From: Anaerolineae bacterium
GTDB lineage: Bacteria; Chloroflexota; Anaerolineae; Aggregatilineales; Phototrophicaceae
Reading direction: 5' to 3'
Length of the DNA stretch: 32,983 nt
Assembly (NCBI GenBank): GCA_017303775.1
Contig: JAFLCH010000008.1
Coordinates: 1 to 32,983 of the forward strand
Part shown: piece by piece, positions 1-32,674 of the stretch
Position numbering within the stretch: position 1 is the stretch's first letter
Layout of the letters: every line of letters begins with the position of its first letter
The notes under the pieces: model-generated
The model's input: only the letters and a program-made list of their open reading frames with translations
Database searches by the model: none
Told to the model about the DNA's origin: nothing
Program-made: the position numbers and the translations under genes

Positions 1-1128
1 CGCAGTGGCAGCGTTAGCCGAAATCGGGGGGATACGGGGGGAATCGACGACTTCAAATACAGCAAATGGCTGATCGGATAGGCATGATCCGAGGGCTGCC
101 ATCACGGAGCGGCGACCAATACCCATCGCAGCCAAACGATCGCAGGCAACTTTCTCGGTAAAGATGTCATCCGGTGAAATGCCTGACAGATACAGTCCAT
201 CAAGGACGCGAGCGAGCGCTGGCTGACGATTTGAGAGCAGCCATTCACGGAGTGCATTGCTCACCCGCGATGAAGCGGCACTATTCCCACGGTGAGGACG
301 ACGGCTAAAGGCACTCGTTATCGTGCGAACAGCCTCGGCGTAGCGACCTTTATAGGTTTCCAAGCGATCCTTGACGTGTGACGCATGAACTCCCGCAACG
401 GCCAGCACAACATCTGACTGCGACCAGCCAGCATCCCGCGCTTGAACGGCCACTTGAAAAAGCGCTCTGTTACGACCATTCGGCGCTAGCTGCTGATACA
501 TGGCGACTAGGTCTTCGGGGGTACTATCGCGTCGGAATTCCGACGCGATGGGCTGCACCGGTTGAGGAGAAGCGGCTGAGGCTGCGAAGAATTGAGCTAT
601 GCGGCGTAGATCAATAGCACTTATTTGGTGAAGTGGTAGGTCATTTTCTACCTGCCAGCATTGATTGCCAACGGCAGTCGGAGGGGCAACGACATAAGCG
701 CCCTCACCACGCAAATCCGCGCCTTTGAATGACCGGCTGGGAACTATCTGGCCGGGGCTTAACTTGAAGTAGAGGTGGGGCAGTCCTCGTCCACCAGAGC
801 GGACGGTGAAGGTTTGACACAGATCGGGCAGGAGGCGTCGGAATTCCGACGCGATCCCCGCTTCATCAAAGTCAAGGACGAGCAGTCGGGACACCCGTCC
901 GCATACAATTCCGATCCCTGTAAAGCGTTCGACTTGAAACCAGTCACGAAGATCGTGTTCGGTGGGAGGGGTGTGTTGATAGCGACCCCAGCGAACGGCG
1001 GGCTGCTTCGCACGCTGTAAATCACGCGCGCCAATGAGCGGAATCAGTGAAAAACCGAGTGAGAGGTATCGATTCGATGCAGAGTAGAATGATTCTGTAT
1101 CGAATCCACCAAAATGATGTGAATTCAA
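1..1128 (-). CDS. Primase-polymerase (bifunctional Prim-Pol), 3' end off the window
   Basis: An uninterrupted frame of 376 codons runs leftward off the window edge without a stop; the protein is therefore partial at its C-terminus. It reads as an AEP-superfamily primase-polymerase of plasmids and phages. The catalytic acidic motif LVLDFDEAG has D86 and D88, the second motif SGGRGLPHLYFK has His118, and the third motif GADLRGEGAYVVAPP starts near residue 136. A later segment, NGRNRALFQVAVQARDAGWS, resembles the helical PriCT domain that follows such polymerases. There is no ATG before residue 200, so the start is probably TTG at 1128, after an AGAAAGG Shine-Dalgarno; an in-frame stop lies just upstream. 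A parAB operon lies upstream on the same strand, which supports a replication-initiation role. Family assignment is from motifs only; the downstream helicase part, if any, is outside the window. Confidence 0.85.
   Translation of the reverse strand, partial: MNSHHFGGFDTESFYSASNRYLSLGFSLIPLIGARDLQRAKQPAVRWGRYQHTPPTEHDLRDWFQVERFTGIGIVCGRVSRLLVLDFDEAGIASEFRRLLPDLCQTFTVRSGGRGLPHLYFKLSPGQIVPSRSFKGADLRGEGAYVVAPPTAVGNQCWQVENDLPLHQISAIDLRRIAQFFAASAASPQPVQPIASEFRRDSTPEDLVAMYQQLAPNGRNRALFQVAVQARDAGWSQSDVVLAVAGVHASHVKDRLETYKGRYAEAVRTITSAFSRRPHRGNSAASSRVSNALREWLLSNRQPALARVLDGLYLSGISPDDIFTEKVACDRLAAMGIGRRSVMAALGSCLSDQPFAVFEVVDSPRIPPISANAATA
526..549. repeat. Perfect 24-bp palindrome, copy 2, inside the primase gene
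   Basis: The 24 bases equal their own reverse complement, with core GCGTCGGAATTCCGACGC. The copy lies in the linker after the Prim-Pol domain and encodes I-A-S-E-F-R-R-D in the gene frame. On the minus strand 21 bases (positions 529-549) recur exactly at 835-855, in the same reading frame. Confidence 0.9.
835..852. repeat. Perfect 18-bp palindrome, copy 1, inside the primase gene
   Basis: GCGTCGGAATTCCGACGC is a perfect palindrome 306 bp from the second copy. It lies between the DFD and SGG-H motifs of the primase and encodes A-S-E-F-R-R. Being twice in one gene beside parAB makes it a candidate protein-binding site (parS-like or replication-initiator site) or an iterated genomic palindrome. 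Confidence 0.85.
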
Positions 1129-1133
1129 AGCAA

Positions 1134-1156
1134 AAATCGCCTTTCTGTGGCGATTT
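1134..1156 (-). promoter_or_regulatory. Stem-loop over the primase ribosome-binding region
   Basis: An 8-bp perfect inverted repeat (AAATCGCC at 1134-1141, GGCGATTT at 1149-1156) has a 7-nt loop. In the primase mRNA the AGAAAGG Shine-Dalgarno sequence falls in the loop and the 3' arm, 6 nt before the TTG start, so folding could limit translation. A short T run follows the stem on the minus strand, so premature termination is the alternative reading. Confidence 0.5.
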
Positions 1157-1158
1157 CG

Positions 1159-1187
1159 TTGAATTTAACACGATTTGGTGCTAAACT
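1159..1187 (+). promoter_or_regulatory. Sigma70-type promoter for the candidate small RNA
   Basis: TTGAAT (1159-1164) and TAAACT (1182-1187) are separated by exactly 17 bases and point away from the primase gene. Transcription would begin near 1194. No protein-coding frame of convincing length follows before a strong terminator. Confidence 0.5.
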
Positions 1188-1193
1188 AACACG

Positions 1194-1398
1194 TGGGTGT
1201 GGGAGCTGGCTCTGTTGTTCCTACAGTGACAAGAGCACTACTCGCCGGATGTTGTTAGTCTAGCGTAGTCTGGTGATCGTGTTACGAAGTAGTTACGGAT
1301 CGCCCCGGTTTTCCGACCAGTGGGATCGCGTTAAAACAACGGAATCGCCCCTAAAGAAGTTGCCCGTATCTTTTCCGAGATACGGGTTTCTTTTTTTC
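1194..1398 (+). ncRNA. Candidate structured small RNA, about 205 nt
   Basis: This stretch runs from a plausible promoter to a strong intrinsic terminator and holds no credible ORF (the longest start-to-stop frame noticed is a 22-codon GTG frame at 1193). Complementary pieces suggest folding, for example GCTCT near 1210 with AGAGC near 1234, and ACTAC near 1243 with GTAGT near 1288. It sits between the primase and parB, where plasmids often carry copy-control RNAs, but it is not antisense to either coding region. It does not match an RNA family I recognise. An origin region with transcription through it is an alternative. Confidence 0.4.
1363..1398 (+). terminator. Rho-independent terminator
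   Basis: A 9-bp perfect stem (CCCGTATCT at 1363-1371 with AGATACGGG at 1378-1386) has a 6-nt loop and is followed by TTTCTTTTTTTC. The T tract is on the plus strand, so it ends a rightward transcript starting near 1194, not the leftward parB mRNA. Confidence 0.85.
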
Positions 1399-1524
1399 TA
1401 CGATAGTCTGATATTCAGTTTTCTTCATTCATGTTGACAGACCAGTCTGATCACCTGTTCTACAACCGGTTTCCGATCCCCTGCCCTATCAACTATCCTT
1501 CATGTACCAACTATTTACAGGCTA

Positions 1525-1548
1525 AATTGTTATAAATAAATAACAGTT
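1525..1548. repeat. AT-rich inverted repeat downstream of parB
   Basis: AATTGTTAT (1525-1533) and ATAACAGTT (1540-1548) form a 9-bp stem with one mismatched or wobble pair and a 6-nt loop, 15 bases beyond the parB stop. It could be a weak end signal for the parAB mRNA or a protein site; there is no good T tract. The rest of 1399-1524 shows nothing definite. Confidence 0.4.
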
Positions 1549-1562
1549 TTGTCGTCGAGATA

Positions 1563-2804
1563 TTATTTTTTCATTTGACTGCGAACGCTTTTTTCCATGT
1601 CGTTCAACCAGTCGTTCAACCAATTCCGCATCGCGCCAATTTCAATGAGGTCAATATCTTTGACCTTACCCCCCTCCCCTACTCGCTTCGCCAAGCTCTT
1701 GAGTCGTTGCAACCGCTTGGCAACTTGAGCGGAGAAAAGCGCATTTTCAGAGTCAAATGATTCACGGCGCGGTGGGGTAGGGGAGTCTGGAATGGCTATC
1801 CCAACCTGATACCCAATGGCCGAAGCTTCTTGTAAGGCTAGACTAATTAATTTTTTATCGTCACCATCAGACAGTCTTTGGAGCTGCCTAATTTTCCCTT
1901 GTGTCCAGTTTAAATCGTCTGCAACTTTCCAGACTTCATCGGGCAATCGAAGCAGCGACCGGTGCTCTCGAAGCTGACTTGAACTTTTGAATCCCGCGGC
2001 ATTTAGAATGGTTTCAACGGAATGGCGGGGCAGGGGATAGGCTTCCCCGTCCGCGACCTGTGCATAGTAACTACGGTCACTATCACCGGTTTGTACGATG
2101 CGCTCGAAAGGCGCAAACTGCTGTCCCTGTTCTTGAAGCACTTCCATAATGAGCAGCGCCAATTGACGCGCTTTGCTGATGGCGTTCAGGTTGGCACGGG
2201 CGTTGTTCTCGCTGGCCTGACGCCACACGCTGAACTGATCCATCACACGGGCTGAGATGCGCCCCCATTTATCCTGTTCATCTACAAAGGAGATATACAG
2301 GAAGTGATAGGCTAACCAGCGGCGTTCACCTGTCTCCAAGCGGTAGTTGCGGGACTGCATGTGGGCAACGGTGATCGGATTTGTTAGCCCATTCGCACGG
2401 ATGTTCGCAGCGAGGGAGACGATCTCAAGGAATGAGCTTTCAACCGGCCCGATTTCTTTTTCGGGGCGGAGGGCTTCTTCCTTGGCGATCAGATAGGGTT
2501 CAATGTCAAATTCATAGCCCCGTTCTTCCACTGCCAAGTTGTACCATGCTGTAAACAAGTCGCTGATGGTTGATGGGCGTCCATCCCAGTAAGAACGGAC
2601 GGGCGTCGGAACGGCTCGACGAGGCTGAAGGACATCCGGGAAAATGTCGAAGATGTTAATCGGTTTGACATTGACGCGACCTGCGTCAACGCGATCCAGA
2701 TCCCCAAAAATAGACGCATCTGTCTCTGCCAATGGCAAGACCGAATCGGTCTGGAAGATATTGCTATCCTCTTTGACTCTTGAGCGTCTAGCCGACACTG
2801 GCAA
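1563..2804 (-). CDS. parB: ParB-like partition protein / CTP-binding centromere protein
   Basis: This is a 413-residue protein of the ParB/Srx superfamily. The N-terminal CTP-binding ParB domain shows IRANGLTNPITV (residues 135-146), the GERRW box (159-163) and the downstream EN..R.NL.AISKA motif (199-212). A helix-turn-helix DNA-binding region and a charged C-terminal dimerisation region follow. It is longer than a typical chromosomal ParB because about 120 residues precede the ParB domain, as in several plasmid ParB proteins. Its start overlaps the end of parA by 17 bases, so translation is probably coupled. It should bind a parS-like site and load the ParA ATPase onto the replicon. No textbook parS (TGTTTCACGTGAAACA type) was seen in the window; the palindromes in the adjacent primase gene are candidates. 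Confidence 0.88.
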   Translation of the reverse strand: MPVSARRSRVKEDSNIFQTDSVLPLAETDASIFGDLDRVDAGRVNVKPINIFDIFPDVLQPRRAVPTPVRSYWDGRPSTISDLFTAWYNLAVEERGYEFDIEPYLIAKEEALRPEKEIGPVESSFLEIVSLAANIRANGLTNPITVAHMQSRNYRLETGERRWLAYHFLYISFVDEQDKWGRISARVMDQFSVWRQASENNARANLNAISKARQLALLIMEVLQEQGQQFAPFERIVQTGDSDRSYYAQVADGEAYPLPRHSVETILNAAGFKSSSQLREHRSLLRLPDEVWKVADDLNWTQGKIRQLQRLSDGDDKKLISLALQEASAIGYQVGIAIPDSPTPPRRESFDSENALFSAQVAKRLQRLKSLAKRVGEGGKVKDIDLIEIGAMRNWLNDWLNDMEKSVRSQMKK

Positions 2805-3579
2805 TTGCCTCCTGTACCCGGTTCACCAGCCCCCAAGCATCCTTCGCGGCTTGACTTTCCGGGGCAAAGCTGAAGACGGGGCGACGAATAGCGGCTGCTT
2901 CCGCCCAGATGGTACGCTGTGGGATCGCTTCCCAGACGAGTGCGCCAAACTGCCCCTGAAGCTGTTTGAGATTTTCGGAATGTTCAAGGGTTTTGGTACG
3001 GTACATGGTTGGTACGATGCCCAGCACACTGATACTGGACAAGCCCCACTGCGAACGATGGGTGTCTGCCGCAGCGCGGTGCTTGATACTTTCGACCAGT
3101 CCATCGAAACTCAGGTATTCACAGGTTGTCGGATAAATAACCCCATCTGTTGCAATATAGATTGAGCCATGCAAGAGTGACGGGGTAGGGGATGTGTCAA
3201 AAATAACGAGATCAATCGTACTTTCCAACTCATGAAACCGTTCGCTAACGGCAAATGAATCTGAAATCGAATTGGCAATGTTACGGGTTTCTACATTGGA
3301 AGGAAGAACAAAGAGCTGCCCGTTCACGGCCTGACCGGGAATCTGATAAGCTTTGGGGGGAATGAAACGCAGGACTGATTTGAATGGCGCATCACGCACT
3401 AATAAGTCGTAAAGCCCCGGTTCTTTTTGCAGCCCTAACGCTACTGTTGCATGCCCCTGTGGATCTGCATCGACCAGCAGTACTCGCATGCCGCGTACAG
3501 CAAGGCCGCAAGCGATATGCGTGGCTAACGTCGTTTTGCCGACGCCACCTTTTTCATTCAGGAGCGTGATGATTTTCAT
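2788..3579 (-). CDS. parA: ParA-type partition ATPase
   Basis: The 263-residue protein has the deviant Walker A motif KGGVGKT (residues 10-16), the A' motif VLLVDADPQG and the Walker B-like LVIFDTSP. These define the ParA/Soj/MinD ATPase superfamily. It starts directly with the ATPase domain and has no N-terminal HTH, so it is of the short ParA class, whose members usually leave operon autoregulation to another protein. The small wHTH gene 18 bases upstream fits that job. A TAAAGGCG ribosome site precedes the ATG by about 8 bases. It should form nucleoid-bound filaments or gradients that position the ParB-bound replicon. Confidence 0.92.
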   Translation of the reverse strand: MKIITLLNEKGGVGKTTLATHIACGLAVRGMRVLLVDADPQGHATVALGLQKEPGLYDLLVRDAPFKSVLRFIPPKAYQIPGQAVNGQLFVLPSNVETRNIANSISDSFAVSERFHELESTIDLVIFDTSPTPSLLHGSIYIATDGVIYPTTCEYLSFDGLVESIKHRAAADTHRSQWGLSSISVLGIVPTMYRTKTLEHSENLKQLQGQFGALVWEAIPQRTIWAEAAAIRRPVFSFAPESQAAKDAWGLVNRVQEAIASVG

Positions 3580-3597
3580 GTCAAACGCCTTTAAAAA

Positions 3598-3867
3598 CTA
3601 CTCGGCTTTGGCGTCTTGGCGGGCATGATATACCCACTCATAGCCAATGGGCGTGCCATTCGGGCGGGACTTAATCTCAACCAAACCGCGATCTTGAAGC
3701 AGTTCCAACAACGCAATATCGTAGGGGGTAAGCCGACGCTTGCCAATTGCTTTGGCAATATCCTTACGGTTCATCCACGGAATCCGGGTCTCGCGCAGAA
3801 TCTCCAGCAGTTTATGTGCCTGCTCGGTAAGGCGAGATGCCGGCGGATGAGTAGGAATCTGATTCAT
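3598..3867 (-). CDS. Small winged-helix DNA-binding protein, first gene of the par operon
   Basis: The product is 89 residues with a predicted winged-helix fold: HKLLEILRE helix, MNRKDIAKAIG as helix and turn, then ALLELLQDRGLVEIKSR leading to a beta-hairpin wing with GYEWVY. I start it at the ATG at 3867 because GAGGAA lies 6 bases upstream; an earlier in-frame ATG at 3888 has no ribosome site. The gene is followed by parA after 18 bases. The promoter upstream carries an inverted repeat, so the simplest role is autorepression of the par operon. That role is inferred; no close family is recognised. Confidence 0.75.
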   Translation of the reverse strand: MNQIPTHPPASRLTEQAHKLLEILRETRIPWMNRKDIAKAIGKRRLTPYDIALLELLQDRGLVEIKSRPNGTPIGYEWVYHARQDAKAE

Positions 3868-3911
3868 GCGTTCTTCCTCGATGCTCATGTTTAAATACTA
3901 TGAACGCTTGA

Positions 3912-3940: not shown

Positions 3941-4045
3941 TAAAGCAGTGGGAATTTTGTATAGGATGCTCAAATGATACCGCAGCAACGCAAAGCCATT
4001 TTCTACGTAATATAAAGATATGACAACCATGTTACAGGAGGTCTT

Positions 4046-4747
4046 GTGGCTAATATTCTTGATACCCTCGTCACCATTGTGATTGGAACGATCAGCGGCG
4101 TCACCAACGTGGTGGCTACTACCGTCACGGCATTGCAGGATTTCTTTTACGTCAAAGTTTCCGGTGTGTCTTTTATCGTGCTCGGCGCGCGACAGACGGG
4201 CAAGACAACTCTGATCGAATGGCTGCGACACAACATGAGCGCGCTGGATTTGGAGGATTTTAACCCGGACCCGACTGCGGCAGGTGGGGAAGTGGTACCA
4301 GAGTTCACTGCACGGGTTGGTGACACTTACATGAAACTGAAACCTAACCGCGATGTGGGCGGGGAATATGCGATGTGGGAAACGGATTGGACAGATCTGT
4401 TTCGGGCAGCGCAACCCAATGGTATCTTGTTTCTCATCGACCATACGGATGCTTTCCTGCAAAAGGACGCACTGAACTTCGTCTTACAAATGATCGAAGA
4501 TGAACCCGCAGCAGCCAAACAACTTAAGGCGTTTTACATTCTGGTGAATAAGTCGGATGTTTGGGGGGATGAGCAGACGCTGGATGATGTTTTGCTGCAC
4601 TATAAGAACGAGCAGAAACGGTTGAAGGGTCAGGCTGAGCGCATCGGGTATCGATGGGAAATTGGTGAAGGCAGTTTGGCGCTTAACCGGGGCGTGACCG
4701 AATTCATGAAGAAGTTCATCAACAGCATTCGACCCAAGAAGCAGTAA
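4046..4747 (+). CDS. Small Ras/Arf-like GTPase with N-terminal hydrophobic helix
   Basis: This 233-residue protein has the P-loop GARQTGKTT (47-55), a G3 region DVGGEYAMW (103-111) that recalls the DVGGQ of Arf proteins, hydrophobic strand GILFLIDHTD and the G4 motif NKSD (168-171). The first 33 residues are hydrophobic or amphipathic and could anchor it to the membrane. Translation starts at GTG 4046 behind a perfect AGGAGG (4036-4041). A second gene follows after 21 bases and is probably co-transcribed. The G3 glutamine of Arf is replaced by Glu here. The likely role is a nucleotide-dependent switch for the downstream partner; which process it controls is unknown. Confidence 0.8.
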   Translation: MANILDTLVTIVIGTISGVTNVVATTVTALQDFFYVKVSGVSFIVLGARQTGKTTLIEWLRHNMSALDLEDFNPDPTAAGGEVVPEFTARVGDTYMKLKPNRDVGGEYAMWETDWTDLFRAAQPNGILFLIDHTDAFLQKDALNFVLQMIEDEPAAAKQLKAFYILVNKSDVWGDEQTLDDVLLHYKNEQKRLKGQAERIGYRWEIGEGSLALNRGVTEFMKKFINSIRPKKQ

Positions 4748-4768
4748 CGAGATGGGACGAGGACTTTA

Positions 4769-5413
4769 ATGCGGCAGCTCATCATCGAATATGTATTTGA
4801 GGGTCACCAACGCGGGTACAACTTTACCTCGCCAACCAATGGGTTTAATGATGACACGCTCAAGCTGGTGTGGCGATCGGCGATGCCACGAGGGCAGGGG
4901 TGGGGTGCGGAGGTATATGTAGGGGCACGTTCCCTCAAGACCTTCGCACTGCCTGACGGACGCATCGCACTGGCGGATGTGGTCGTGACCGGACAAAAAG
5001 ACGAAGGCGGGCGCGGGGGTATCCGGCGAACAGTGGTCGACATCATGCAGCCGGGAGAGTATCACGATATGCTCGTGCGGCGCTTTCATTCATACCCCCC
5101 GGACGTGCAGCAAGAGGCCAGCCGGAAACCGGGCTTTGGGCGGAGACGACTCCCTAAAATACACGGTGCTGCACAGGTGGTTTTGTCGCATCCTTACATG
5201 CAAGCACAGTTATGGCAAATGGTCGAGGCACTTATTCTGCATGCTGCGCTCGAAGCGCTGGGAAAACGCTGGTTAGGGGGTCAATTTTTCACCTTCACCA
5301 CGCTCGCGCTGGAATATCGGGAAGAGTCACAGCTCGTTGTGCTGCCTGCCCAGCGTGCATCTGAACTTCAAGGTACACGCCCAAAGTTGAATATTCAGGC
5401 GCTGAGTTTGTAG
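4769..5413 (+). CDS. GTPase-linked protein, resembles GAP1-N (GTPase-associated) domain
   Basis: The 214-residue protein has no signal peptide or membrane segment. Its first half has the layout I associate with GAP1-N domains of bacterial GTPase-associated proteins: a short N-terminal beta strand, an RGYNFTSPTNGF turn, then LPDGRIALADVVVTG, RGGIRRTVVDI and an LV-rich helix. The second half (about 120-214) is helical then beta, with LWQMVEALILHAALEALG. GAGG lies upstream of the ATG, and the gene follows the GTPase by 21 bases. The resemblance is from memory of the family pattern, not from an alignment, so the domain name is tentative; the GTPase partnership is firmer. Its stop codon is one base from the convergent neighbour's stop. 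Confidence 0.5.
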   Translation: MRQLIIEYVFEGHQRGYNFTSPTNGFNDDTLKLVWRSAMPRGQGWGAEVYVGARSLKTFALPDGRIALADVVVTGQKDEGGRGGIRRTVVDIMQPGEYHDMLVRRFHSYPPDVQQEASRKPGFGRRRLPKIHGAAQVVLSHPYMQAQLWQMVEALILHAALEALGKRWLGGQFFTFTTLALEYREESQLVVLPAQRASELQGTRPKLNIQALSL

Positions 5414-10071: not shown

Positions 10072-11271
10072 TTACTGGTAAACGGTGCAGCCCCGTTCTT
10101 GCAAATCATGAAGCCATTCAGGCTGCTTTCGCAGCCGAACCCAGCGGAGATCCAGTTTTTGGAGTTGGGGTAATTCTGCGAGTGCTGGTGGCAGCACGGA
10201 GAAATTGTTACCACGCAGATCGAGATGAGTCAGGTTCTGCAACATCTGAATTGTAGAGGGTAACGTGGTTAGTGCCGTGTTGCGCAGATCAAGAACCTGT
10301 AACGCCCGGAGTTCCCCGAACGAATCGGGTAGGGTGGTTAGCGGGTTGTTCGACAGATGTAGTTCGACGAGTTGATTGAGGTGACTGATTGCTGGCGGCA
10401 AGGTGCTGAGCCGGTTGTTATACAACCGTAATTCCTTCAGGCTGCCAAGTTCGCTTATCGTTGAAGGTAGTTCATAGAACTGGTTGTGGCTCAGGTTGAG
10501 ATAGGTCAAACGTTTCAAGGCTCGAATGCGATCGGGCAGCGTGTGCAGCGCATTGTGGCTGACATATAAATACCGGCTCAGATTCGTCAATCGCCCTATC
10601 GAATCCGGCAGGGAAATCAGTTGGTTATGGCCAATATCCAGTGTATGCAAATGACCTAAATCGCCCACTGAATCGGGTAGTTCGATCAGATTGTTGGAAT
10701 GGATATAGAGTTCGCGTAGTTCATGCAGATTCGCGAGTTCTGCCGGCATGTTCAAAAGCGGATTATCGCCAATCGACAACAGTCGTAGATTAGTGAGCGA
10801 CCAGAGTGATGGTGGAAGATGATTGAGTTGGTTGTTGTGGAGATAAAGTTGGCGTAGGGTTCTCAGAAAGCCTATTTGATCAGGGAGGCTCTTGAGCTGA
10901 TTATGATCTAGATGCAGGGCTTCAAGTGCCTCCAACCCGCCAATTGAATCCGGCAAGGTAACAAGTTGATTGCCGTCTAGATAGAGCGTTCGCAGCGCCT
11001 TTAACTCGCTGATCCAAGGCGGGATTGTGTCGAGTTGGTTACCGGAAAGATCGAGTGTTTGCAGCGCCGAAAAGTGTCTGATAAAGCTGCTGAGAACTTT
11101 TAACCCACAGCGGCGAGCAGCCAGCTCAGTCATGTGACCATCTTTGATCACGACGCCAATTTGACCTTCACCCGCATTCAGATTGCTGCTGAGTTCAAGC
11201 CCTGTATCCGAAAGAAAATTTTTCAGAACATTTTCTTCGTCCGGCAAAAGATCATAAATCGTGTTCATCAT
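10072..11271 (-). CDS. Leucine-rich repeat protein, cytoplasmic
   Basis: A 399-residue protein with about 13 to 14 tandem 23-residue leucine-rich repeats from residue 65 to the end, of pattern LxxLxLxxNxLxxLPxxIxxL, as in ROCO and Ras-suppressor-type LRRs. The first 60 residues form a non-repeat cap without signal peptide. There is no fused GTPase, kinase or effector domain. It should form a curved scaffold for protein contacts. One repeat (RYLYVSHNAL) has an extra residue. It is divergent from a HEAT-repeat gene across a 160-base gap, so the pair could be co-regulated, but no shared function is visible. Confidence 0.88.
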   Translation of the reverse strand: MMNTIYDLLPDEENVLKNFLSDTGLELSSNLNAGEGQIGVVIKDGHMTELAARRCGLKVLSSFIRHFSALQTLDLSGNQLDTIPPWISELKALRTLYLDGNQLVTLPDSIGGLEALEALHLDHNQLKSLPDQIGFLRTLRQLYLHNNQLNHLPPSLWSLTNLRLLSIGDNPLLNMPAELANLHELRELYIHSNNLIELPDSVGDLGHLHTLDIGHNQLISLPDSIGRLTNLSRYLYVSHNALHTLPDRIRALKRLTYLNLSHNQFYELPSTISELGSLKELRLYNNRLSTLPPAISHLNQLVELHLSNNPLTTLPDSFGELRALQVLDLRNTALTTLPSTIQMLQNLTHLDLRGNNFSVLPPALAELPQLQKLDLRWVRLRKQPEWLHDLQERGCTVYQ

Positions 11272-11304
11272 CTGTGTATCCCGTCAATGATTGAAACCAC
11301 GGCG

Positions 11305-11310
11305 ATTATA
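11305..11310 (-). promoter_or_regulatory. Possible -10 box (TATAAT) for the LRR gene
   Basis: A perfect TATAAT on the minus strand lies 34 bases upstream of the LRR start. The -35 is poor (TCGACT at 15-base spacing). A 9-bp direct repeat TAGTCGATT (11325-11333 and 11357-11365) spans the same gap. Confidence 0.4.
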
Positions 11311-11431
11311 GCGATCAAACAGAATAGTCGATTGGTTTTTACGTCTTTCACAAAGTTAGTCGATTTTTGAAGTCTCGTGCAAGGTCGGGACGATAGCCTG
11401 AAGCTGAAGTTGTTAGAGGTATTCTATTTTC

Positions 11432-12331
11432 GTGATTGTGAACATGACAAACATCGATGATCTTCTTGAAAAAGCCCTGAGTGACAGCCCGATTGTGCAG
11501 CGCATCGCTATCGCTGAACTGAGTCCATTATGTGATGTTCGGGCTGCTGATGTGTTGGTTCAAGTGATGCATACCGCAAACCGTAGTGTGCGCGTACAGG
11601 CTGCCCGTGCACTTGCTAAAATCGGTACTGGCGCTGTTTCACACCTGATTGGTGTATTAAACGCCGATAATCGAGACTCGTGGACTTTAGCTTCGGCCAC
11701 TCTGTTGATGATTGGCAGCGCAGCTGTCCCCGGTTTGATGGATGCGTTAACCGGAGAATCCGAACAGGTACGCTTGTTAGCGGTTGAGGTGTTAGGACAA
11801 ATTGGAGACACCCGCCCGATTCCGCAGCTCGTGGAGATTTTGCAGTCCGATAATCCAGCCCTGCAAACAGCTGCTGCGGCGGCTTTGGTTCGCATCGGCC
11901 CGGAGTCGGTACAGCCATTAGTGGTGCTGATGACGGCCTTCCATCAACCGAATTTGCGTAGGATGGTGACCGAAATTATTAGCCAGATTGGCGAGGACGC
12001 GATTGCCCCGCTCATGACGATGCTTTATGAGTCGAGCGATCTTGAACGCAGTCAAGTCGCGTGGTTGACGGGAAGCTTCGGCAGTGCGGCTGTACCATCA
12101 CTCCTAGAGGCTTTAGAGAGTGAAAACGCCTCTGTTCGCTATGCTGCCGCGACAGCATTAGGGCAAACGGGGGATAACATGGCGGTAGCCGGTTTGGTCA
12201 ATCACCTGACCGATACGGCTTACATCAGCACCATGGGCAAGCGCGTGTGTGATGCAGCCGCTCATGCCCTAGAGCAGATTGGTACGCCCGACGCGTTAGG
12301 GCAGGTAAAAAGCTGGCGGCTACAAAGCTGA
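11432..12331 (+). CDS. HEAT-repeat protein (phycobilisome-lyase-type repeats)
   Basis: The 299-residue product consists almost wholly of about nine 31-residue HEAT repeats, for example VRVQAARALAKIGTGAVSHLIGVL and VRYAAATALGQTGD. These are of the PBS-lyase/EZ type. There is no signal peptide or membrane segment. It is likely a cytoplasmic protein-interaction scaffold. I use GTG 11432, which has AGAGG 12 bases upstream; ATG at 11444 is an alternative start that would remove four residues. It stands alone, divergent from the LRR gene and convergent with the propeller gene. Confidence 0.85.
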   Translation: MIVNMTNIDDLLEKALSDSPIVQRIAIAELSPLCDVRAADVLVQVMHTANRSVRVQAARALAKIGTGAVSHLIGVLNADNRDSWTLASATLLMIGSAAVPGLMDALTGESEQVRLLAVEVLGQIGDTRPIPQLVEILQSDNPALQTAAAAALVRIGPESVQPLVVLMTAFHQPNLRRMVTEIISQIGEDAIAPLMTMLYESSDLERSQVAWLTGSFGSAAVPSLLEALESENASVRYAAATALGQTGDNMAVAGLVNHLTDTAYISTMGKRVCDAAAHALEQIGTPDALGQVKSWRLQS

Positions 12332-31075: not shown

Positions 31076-32674
31076 CTACCGTAACCGTGCAATCGCGACC
31101 TGATCGATTAACACCTTCCGCGTCTTCAAATCCGTCACGGTCAGCCGCAGTTGGCGCTGTGCGTCCACGTTGAACACCGCTTTCACCCGGTCTTCTCCTA
31201 CCACCCCCGCCGGAATAAGTGCAGCCAATCGTTTTGCTGCTGCTTCCTCGTTCAGCGGGATAATCTGCTGTTCGCTCCGCTCTGCCTGTGCCACAAACAC
31301 CGCTTGCCCCCCCTCATACTGCACTTCCAGCATCCCGACCGCCTCGGTATCAATCTCCCCGATCACAAACTCCATCGCCGTTTGTCCCTCATGCGCCGCC
31401 CCCAGCATCACCTCCACCGGTTGGCGCAGCGGATACCGGCTTCCCATCGGGATGATCTCATCATACAAATGGGTTTGAGTCGCTGCATCCAAATGGCGGA
31501 TTCCGTAGCTGTGAACCAGATAATCTTCCAGCCCGTACCCCGCCGCCACTTGCAGCGCCCCTTCAACCACCGCCGTGAACGGTTTATCCGCCCGCACCGC
31601 TGCCGCGTTGAAGTACTGCCGCAGCGTCTCTTGTACCGACGGCATCAGCGAGATTCCCCCCACCAGCAGCACCGCGTGAATATCCTCGCGGAAGACACCC
31701 TTCCGCTGTGCCACATGCAGCACCTTATCCACCACCTGTCGCAGCGCCGTGTAAAATCCATGCGTCTCCAGCAGTGCTTCTAATTCGGCGCGTGTCCATT
31801 CCTGTGTTCGTTCTTGCCCGCCTGCCGTAAATCGCAGCGTCACCATCTCCTGTGTCGAAAGGGCAATCTTCGCCTGTTCGCAAACCGTCAGCAGCCCCGC
31901 GTAATCCGCCCCCAGCGTGCTGCTGTTCAACCCGCTTCGCCGCAGCACCTCCGCCAGCAGCCATTGATCGATGTCACTTCCACCGATTACCCGTCCCGCT
32001 TTAGCGATCACCTTTGCCGAATGCTGCCCCGTCTTCCCACCCAGCAGTCGTCCCAGAAACCGTCCCGTAGTCGCTTTGCTTTCCGGCAGTTGTACCAGCG
32101 ACAAATCCAGCGTTCCCCCGCCGAAGTCGAATACCAGCACCACCGCTCCCGGCTCGGTCACCAGATACCCCAGCGCTGCCGCCGTCGATTCATCCACCAG
32201 CCGCACGCGCTCCTGTGGAATATCGGTAATCAACTCATTCAACCATGTCAGATACCCCTCGAACGAAGCCACCGGCGCGGTCAGCACCAACTGCTCAACC
32301 TGATCCATAGGGTAGGGGATCGCTTTCAACAATTCGCGCATAAATCGGCTGCCGGCCTCCATATCCCCCCACGCTTCCCCGTCAATCAGTCGCGCATCCG
32401 GTGCGGGGGCAGCCACCAATCCCCGCTTGAAATTGCGGAATAGCCGGTTGTCCTGCTCGTAATCCAGCCGCATTTCCCGCACAGCTTGTCCGCTGGTGAT
32501 CTTTCCCGCCCGCCCGTCCGCCACGTACACCAGTGACGGAATCAAAGCCGGGAGTTCATCCGTGACGTTGCTCAACCCCGCCAGCGCGAGGATGCGCGCC
32601 GCCTCTGCCTGATCATTCCACTCTGCTACCACGCTGTTTGTCGTGCCGAAGTCGATTGCCAGACGCTGTTTCAT
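31076..32674 (-). CDS. Hsp70-family chaperone lacking the helical lid
   Basis: The 532-residue protein has Hsp70/actin-type ATPase motifs: IDFGTTNS (7-14), VDESTAAALGY (160-170), DFGGGTLDL (183-191) and the adenosine motif LLVGGISLMPSVQ. After about residue 390 comes a substrate-binding beta-sandwich region (GIRHLDAATQTHLYDEIIPMGSRYP) ending with LRLTVTDLKTRKVL. The protein then stops about 10 residues later, so the alpha-helical lid of DnaK (about 100 residues) is absent. It is not the main DnaK; no grpE or dnaJ lies beside it. It is paired with a HEAT-repeat gene. It probably works as a specialised ATP-dependent binder. Confidence 0.9.
   Translation of the reverse strand: MKQRLAIDFGTTNSVVAEWNDQAEAARILALAGLSNVTDELPALIPSLVYVADGRAGKITSGQAVREMRLDYEQDNRLFRNFKRGLVAAPAPDARLIDGEAWGDMEAGSRFMRELLKAIPYPMDQVEQLVLTAPVASFEGYLTWLNELITDIPQERVRLVDESTAAALGYLVTEPGAVVLVFDFGGGTLDLSLVQLPESKATTGRFLGRLLGGKTGQHSAKVIAKAGRVIGGSDIDQWLLAEVLRRSGLNSSTLGADYAGLLTVCEQAKIALSTQEMVTLRFTAGGQERTQEWTRAELEALLETHGFYTALRQVVDKVLHVAQRKGVFREDIHAVLLVGGISLMPSVQETLRQYFNAAAVRADKPFTAVVEGALQVAAGYGLEDYLVHSYGIRHLDAATQTHLYDEIIPMGSRYPLRQPVEVMLGAAHEGQTAMEFVIGEIDTEAVGMLEVQYEGGQAVFVAQAERSEQQIIPLNEEAAAKRLAALIPAGVVGEDRVKAVFNVDAQRQLRLTVTDLKTRKVLIDQVAIARLR

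Follow-up and report, generated by a model that had tools for sequence, protein, structure and literature searches.

Among described systems, those closest to the locus analysed here are the eukaryotic circuits, among them those of human and yeast cells, in which longin-DENN proteins act with Arf- and Rag-type GTPases. A 2026 preprint proposes that an Arg between strands β4 and β5 of the longin domain marks the monomeric DENN GTPase-activating proteins (GAPs) for Arf-family GTPases, and GAP activity is reported for Avl9 and DENND6A (PMC12803157). The GATOR1 (NPRL2-NPRL3), FLCN-FNIP and C9orf72-SMCR8 complexes are multi-subunit, each with two longin-DENN subunits, and the catalytic Arg78 of NPRL2 sits on a longin loop (PMC8534245). 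Two bacterial systems also bear comparison. MglA-MglB pairs a small GTPase with a regulator, encoded beside it, that has the roadblock fold; this fold is a circular permutation relative to the longin order (PMC3521125). GAP1 is a three-domain protein whose gene lies downstream of one for a GTPase that carries a conserved Walker B Glu, and the DO-GTPase/GAP1 systems occupy mobile neighbourhoods with effectors; longin and DENN are unmentioned in the paper describing them (PMC7159879).

We analysed a 32,983-nucleotide stretch of DNA from an uncultured Anaerolineae bacterium of the Chloroflexota (contig JAFLCH010000008.1 of assembly GCA_017303775.1, termed here the window), in which the initial annotation had placed a membrane-associated Arf/Ras-like GTPase and a GAP1-N-like partner at positions 4046-5413. 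The coordinates of both open reading frames, on the + strand, and the 21 bp from the GTPase stop to the partner start were confirmed. According to the predictions described below, the pair resembles the monomeric DENN GAPs and GEFs (Avl9, DENND6A, DENND1B) in the succession of a longin domain and a DENN-like unit, in the Arg of the β4-β5 loop and in an Arf-family-like GTPase, but the partner is bacterial, has only 214 aa with a short DENN-like part and no dDENN, and displays no detectable sequence similarity to them. With GATOR1, FLCN-FNIP and C9orf72-SMCR8 acting with Rag or Arf it would share the longin domain, the β4-β5 loop Arg and the Rag/Arf-like GTPase, whereas a single partner gene is seen here; the C-terminal roadblock domain of Rag/Gtr proteins is absent from the 233-aa GTPase, whose chain stops after the G domain. 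As in MglA-MglB, a bacterial small GTPase lies beside a putative regulator of related fold, but the order of the partner is that of longin rather than permuted roadblock and the GTPase is Rag/Arf-like. The GAP1-N2/DO-GTPase systems have in common with this locus a GTPase gene followed by a partner gene, a DxxGRxG-type loop, a Glu in G3 and a weak N-domain profile match, whereas GAP1-M/C, FNIII, effectors and zinc ribbons are missing here and the GTPase is Arf-like. A literature search for longin or DENN in bacteria, which covered few subscription papers, turned up no description of a comparable pair.

The GTPase and its linkage to the partner gene

The GTPase gene (4046..4747) begins with a GTG codon preceded, 4 nt ahead, by the ribosome-binding site AGGAGG (4036..4041, + strand), and the start residue is the same in most homologues. 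Its Arf-like nature could be upheld: the window protein scores 23.0 bits against Pfam Arf (PF00025), marginally above the gathering cut-off of 22.3, and 29 of the 31 homologues match Arf (E up to 0.01), the other two matching Gtr1_RagA. A PDB sequence search with the GTPase profile gave no matches. In a tethered model of GTPase and partner, obtained by reading through the stop codon, the best structural matches of the G domain were the Asgard RagA-like LokiRagO (Z 12.8), Gtr1 (12.2) and Arl1/Arf1 (about 12). These matches are tied, and a Rag/Arf-like fold is thus predicted.

The GTP-binding motifs are readily located on the + strand. The P-loop GARQTGKT (G1, 4184..4207) contains R49 and Q50, both invariant across homologues; T77 (4274..4276), likewise invariant, is the probable switch I threonine (G2), and NKSD (4547..4558) forms G4. 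The switch II DVGGEYAMWETDW (G3, 4352..4390) displays 13 residues invariant in the 31 homologues. All 31 carry DVGGE, with a Glu where Arf and Rag have the catalytic Gln, and so depart from the DxGGQ of Arf. R49 and Q50, which we take to occupy the positions of Ras G12 and G13, might have a role in catalysis replacing the missing switch II Gln. The N-terminal segment (residues 1-31, 4046..4138, + strand), which had been described as hydrophobic, is a borderline case: its KD19 maximum is 1.68, it is weakly amphipathic (hydrophobic moment 0.38) and AlphaFold models it with a confidence below 50. Its sequence makes membrane association of the GTPase through this segment, as a possible anchor or helix, plausible.

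Of 151 related genomes, 44 contain a relative of the GTPase and 44 are matched by the partner profile; both genes were present in 43, only the GTPase in one (G364), only the partner in one (G426) and neither in 106 (Fisher p 2e-35, uncorrected for phylogeny). Co-occurrence across genomes, suggested initially as a check on the pair, thus links the two genes. Among 30 loci in which the intergenic gap was measured, 25 have a gap between -4 and 41 bp, and several show 4-bp overlaps. The two genes are located on different contigs in four of the genomes carrying both (G313, G319, G323 and G366); in G313 the contig breaks off shortly past the GTPase gene, so the two may still be linked there. In another locus (L028:8732-9382) the GTPase and partner genes are separated by an ORF of 216 aa that has hydrophobic segments. 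GTPase relatives are also present in 32 loci of named MAGs from Anaerolineae, including Aggregatilineales. The divergence of GTPase and partner is correlated (r 0.83 over 26 pairs), as expected, since joint vertical inheritance suffices to produce such a correlation with or without coevolution. We conclude that the GTPase and its partner form a real two-gene unit, minimal as first described, whose functional pairing is well supported.

In a different family of the class, the partner profile detected one diverged relative (L073; E 4.6e-6, about 22% identity). The gene immediately upstream of it encodes a GTPase, likewise diverged, in which DIGGGE replaces DVGGE; therefore the association of GTPase and partner holds at about 22% partner identity. 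Relatives of this diverged partner were absent from the 79 genomes searched, and a phylum-wide profile search over 301 sampled genomes found the partner solely in the window's own genome. Several other candidates were discarded: L074 resembles gyrase A, L003-L005 were probably matched by chance, and a weak match on a Nostoc plasmid is an Arf-like GTPase whose neighbour, a TPR protein, is not recognisable as the same partner. In the latter (Nostoc sp. HK-01 plasmid6, L075:4902-6821) only 3 bp separate the gene of an Arf/SRPRB-like GTPase from that of a downstream 386-aa protein whose C-terminal part is TPR, and the two may be a further GTPase/regulator pair.

Predicted fold of the partner and its conserved loop

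The partner (4769..5413, + strand, ATG start) had no match in Pfam, Robl_LC7 included, nor in NCBIfam, PADLOC or PHROGs; a PDB sequence search with its profile gave no matches, and sequence profile searches detected neither DENN nor longin. It was folded by AlphaFold from a 28-sequence alignment, and the resulting model (pLDDT 89.8, pTM 0.88) consists of a longin-like domain of order β1-β2-α1-β3-β4-β5-α2-α3 (residues 1-119, 4769..5125, + strand) and a short C-terminal β-α-β unit (residues 131-197, 5159..5359, + strand). This order of strands and helices is that of longin, not of roadblock. The C-terminal unit is all that stands in the place of the cDENN/dDENN modules; it is considered DENN-like as the alignment with DENND1B, covering residues 1-212, spans it without any sequence match.

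The sole PDB match of the model with a Foldseek E below 0.001 was the GEF domain of DENND1B (E 3.7e-4). VIA-align gave Z 5.5 for DENND1B (179 residues, 4.6 Å), 5.1 for GATOR1 chains of NPRL2 length (2.6 Å over 81 residues), 5.0 for the Lst4 longin domain and for TagF, 4.9 for an Asgard roadblock-longin protein and for DENND1A, 4.8 for DENND10 and 4.0 for folliculin-complex chains; it is to be noted that a Z of about 5 is modest, as unrelated folds also match at this level and, by the tool's own warning, values below 8 may mean a common arrangement. The fold call carries weight because nearly all the top rows belong to one functional class, mostly GTPase regulators: longin or longin-DENN proteins make up 12 of the 13 top Z rows, TagF being the exception, and PAS/LOV domains, of similar sheet topology, score below them. 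A longin-DENN-like fold is thus probable for the partner. The structural check put forward with the initial annotation therefore agrees with it for the GTPase, which matches Rag and Arf, and leads away from GAP1-N for the partner, whose best matches are longin-DENN proteins.

The RG turn and the LPDGRIALAD and RGGIRR segments on which the GAP1-N likeness had been based are all present. In the 28 homologues, G16 and Y17 are invariant, and so are V73, T74, D78, E79, R82, G84, I85 and R86 of the β4-β5 loop VTxxxDExGRxGIRR. In the model, the strand preceding the loop ends at residue 73 and β5 starts at 86, so that the conserved loop comprises residues 74-85 (4988..5023, + strand) and R86 (5024..5026, + strand) lies at the junction with β5. 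The conserved Arg between β4 and β5 of the longin domain that characterizes DENN GAPs of the Avl9 type thus has counterparts in R82 and R86; among the loop residues, it is R86 that still faces an Arg in the alignment with the diverged L073 protein. NPRL2 Arg78 is found within CIEHKKYSRNALLFNL, as confirmed against PDB entries; both it and R86 stand two residues ahead of the following hydrophobic stretch, a correspondence matched by eye from sequences and strand positions rather than coordinates. Comparison with NPRL2 and with the DENN GAPs makes R86 the candidate arginine finger. R82 or other invariant residues of the partner could be catalytic instead, or the conservation could be purely structural.

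Possible actions of the partner on the GTPase

The two proteins may constitute a compact, dedicated small-GTPase switch. Lacking the catalytic Gln, the GTPase would probably hydrolyse GTP slowly on its own; the partner would bind it, most likely as its GTPase-activating protein, and insert R86, or possibly R82, from the end of the β4-β5 loop into its active site, an arginine-finger action modelled on the eukaryotic DENN GAPs and NPRL2. The N-terminal segment may place the GTPase at the membrane. We infer from these comparisons the binding, the GAP direction, the arginine finger and the membrane site of the pair. In the tethered model (pTM 0.56) no confident docking was obtained, a result that speaks neither for nor against a complex. 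That a longin-DENN-like partner turns the GTPase off by means of an arginine finger is the best explanation of the whole, and we consider the chances of its being right or wrong to be evenly balanced.

Other DENN proteins are GEFs, and regulation could therefore run in the opposite direction. The partner might accordingly activate the GTPase, and its best single fold match, spanning nearly the whole protein, is the DENND1B GEF domain from the Rab35 complex; against this, the most conserved element of the partner is the β4-β5 loop with its invariant Arg, tied to DENN GAPs and not to the Rab-GEF surface (PMC12803157), and we regard a GEF as unlikely. The partner could also be a downstream effector or scaffold recruited by the GTP-bound GTPase and leaving its cycle unchanged. 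Such a protein would show identical co-occurrence and linkage, and longin domains serve beyond GTPase regulation too (PMC10933270), but the invariant Arg in a GAP-like loop, together with a GTPase devoid of catalytic Gln, suggests catalysis in trans and renders this alternative quite unlikely.

Relation to GAP1 systems and genomic context

As for the proposed GAP1-N-like partner, only a weak likeness of the N domain to GAP1-N2 stood up. One partner homologue reached E 0.0011 and 19.5 bits against Pfam GAP1-N2 (PF20013), under the cut-off of 24; the window partner itself had no GAP1-N2 match, and none was found elsewhere in the window's genome. When the partner N domain was compared by profile-profile scoring with 21 GAP1-N2 sequences drawn from another Chloroflexota class, the score was 23.3, just above the maximum of 200 shuffles (22.2), whereas the C-terminal half scored 11.4, below its shuffled maximum of 15.4. 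An earlier hhalign against ten GAP1 sequences gave no signal for the partner, and direct profile searches between partner and GAP1 were insignificant. With 214 aa, the partner is too short for GAP1-M and GAP1-C and its C half is without signal, so that it could not be retained as a GAP1; nor could the GTPase as a DO-GTPase, since it matches Arf and neither the window protein nor its homologues match the DO-GTPase models of Pfam. The resemblance between partner and GAP1-N2 is distant and limited to the N domain, and the pair lacks the features by which those systems are defined. Short GAP1-N2 proteins of about 300 aa (L057, L058 and L077) occur in another Chloroflexota class and may bridge the gap from full GAP1 to the partner.

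The plasmid-like core noted beside the pair was found in the window and in close relatives only. Positions 1-3888 contain a PrimPol-like ORF open at the window start, ParB-like (1563-2804) and ParA-like (2788-3579) genes and a 96-aa HTH-like ORF, and this integrated-plasmid-like core also lies beside the pair in L025, L026 and L028; ParA, ParB and the small HTH-like ORF precede the pair in close relatives, and beyond them no gene family recurs beside it in a telling way. As initially remarked, larger effector genes are absent: no effector, FNIII or GASH genes accompany the pair, and it bears no mark of mobility or of a link to defence. The partner had no match in 72,556 plasmids, and relatives of neither protein were detected in viral contigs or in BFVD. 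Elsewhere in the window, a 399-aa leucine-rich-repeat protein (- strand) is divergent from a 299-aa HEAT-repeat protein (+ strand) at 10072-12331, and a 532-aa HSP70/MreB-like protein is encoded at 31076-32674, only the middle part of HSP70 being matched. Two roadblock/LC7 proteins (L115 and L116, on contigs C81 and C68 of G000) are encoded elsewhere in the window's genome, which may possess a separate MglAB-type system.

That the pair is a reduced GAP1/DO-GTPase conflict system of the GAP1-N2 type, serving in defence or self/non-self signalling, is a reading consistent with the N-domain likeness, with the Glu in G3 as in DO-GTPases (PMC7159879) and with the usual position of GAP1 downstream of its GTPase, but the extent of that likeness, the Arf affiliation of the GTPase, the missing effector, FNIII and GASH genes, the lack of recurrent neighbours and the plasmid and viral searches make it very unlikely. 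Of the signalling or defence module first envisaged, the dedicated GTPase-partner pair is retained and a defence role is unlikely, being disfavoured because inheritance is independent of the neighbours with one copy per genome; a housekeeping-type role, in polarity, envelope or nutrient signalling, fits better.

A genome hardly ever has one of the two genes without the other, and our observations therefore suggest that bacteria have their own form of a control circuit described chiefly in eukaryotes. It is conceivable, though doubtful, that the pair is a minimal, vertically kept GTPase and longin-DENN GAP homologous to the eukaryotic Rag/Arf-DENN circuits, and that GAP1 proteins, too, belong to this lineage of longin-DENN GAPs. 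If this homology were true, longin-DENN regulation of Arf/Rag-type GTPases would predate eukaryotes or lie outside them. A bacterial two-gene version would be small enough for purification and crystals, so that ideas on how the arginine-finger longin GAP arose could be put to a direct test, and it would provide a hypothesis for the way in which the GAP1 proteins of bacterial conflict systems, as yet uncharacterised, act.
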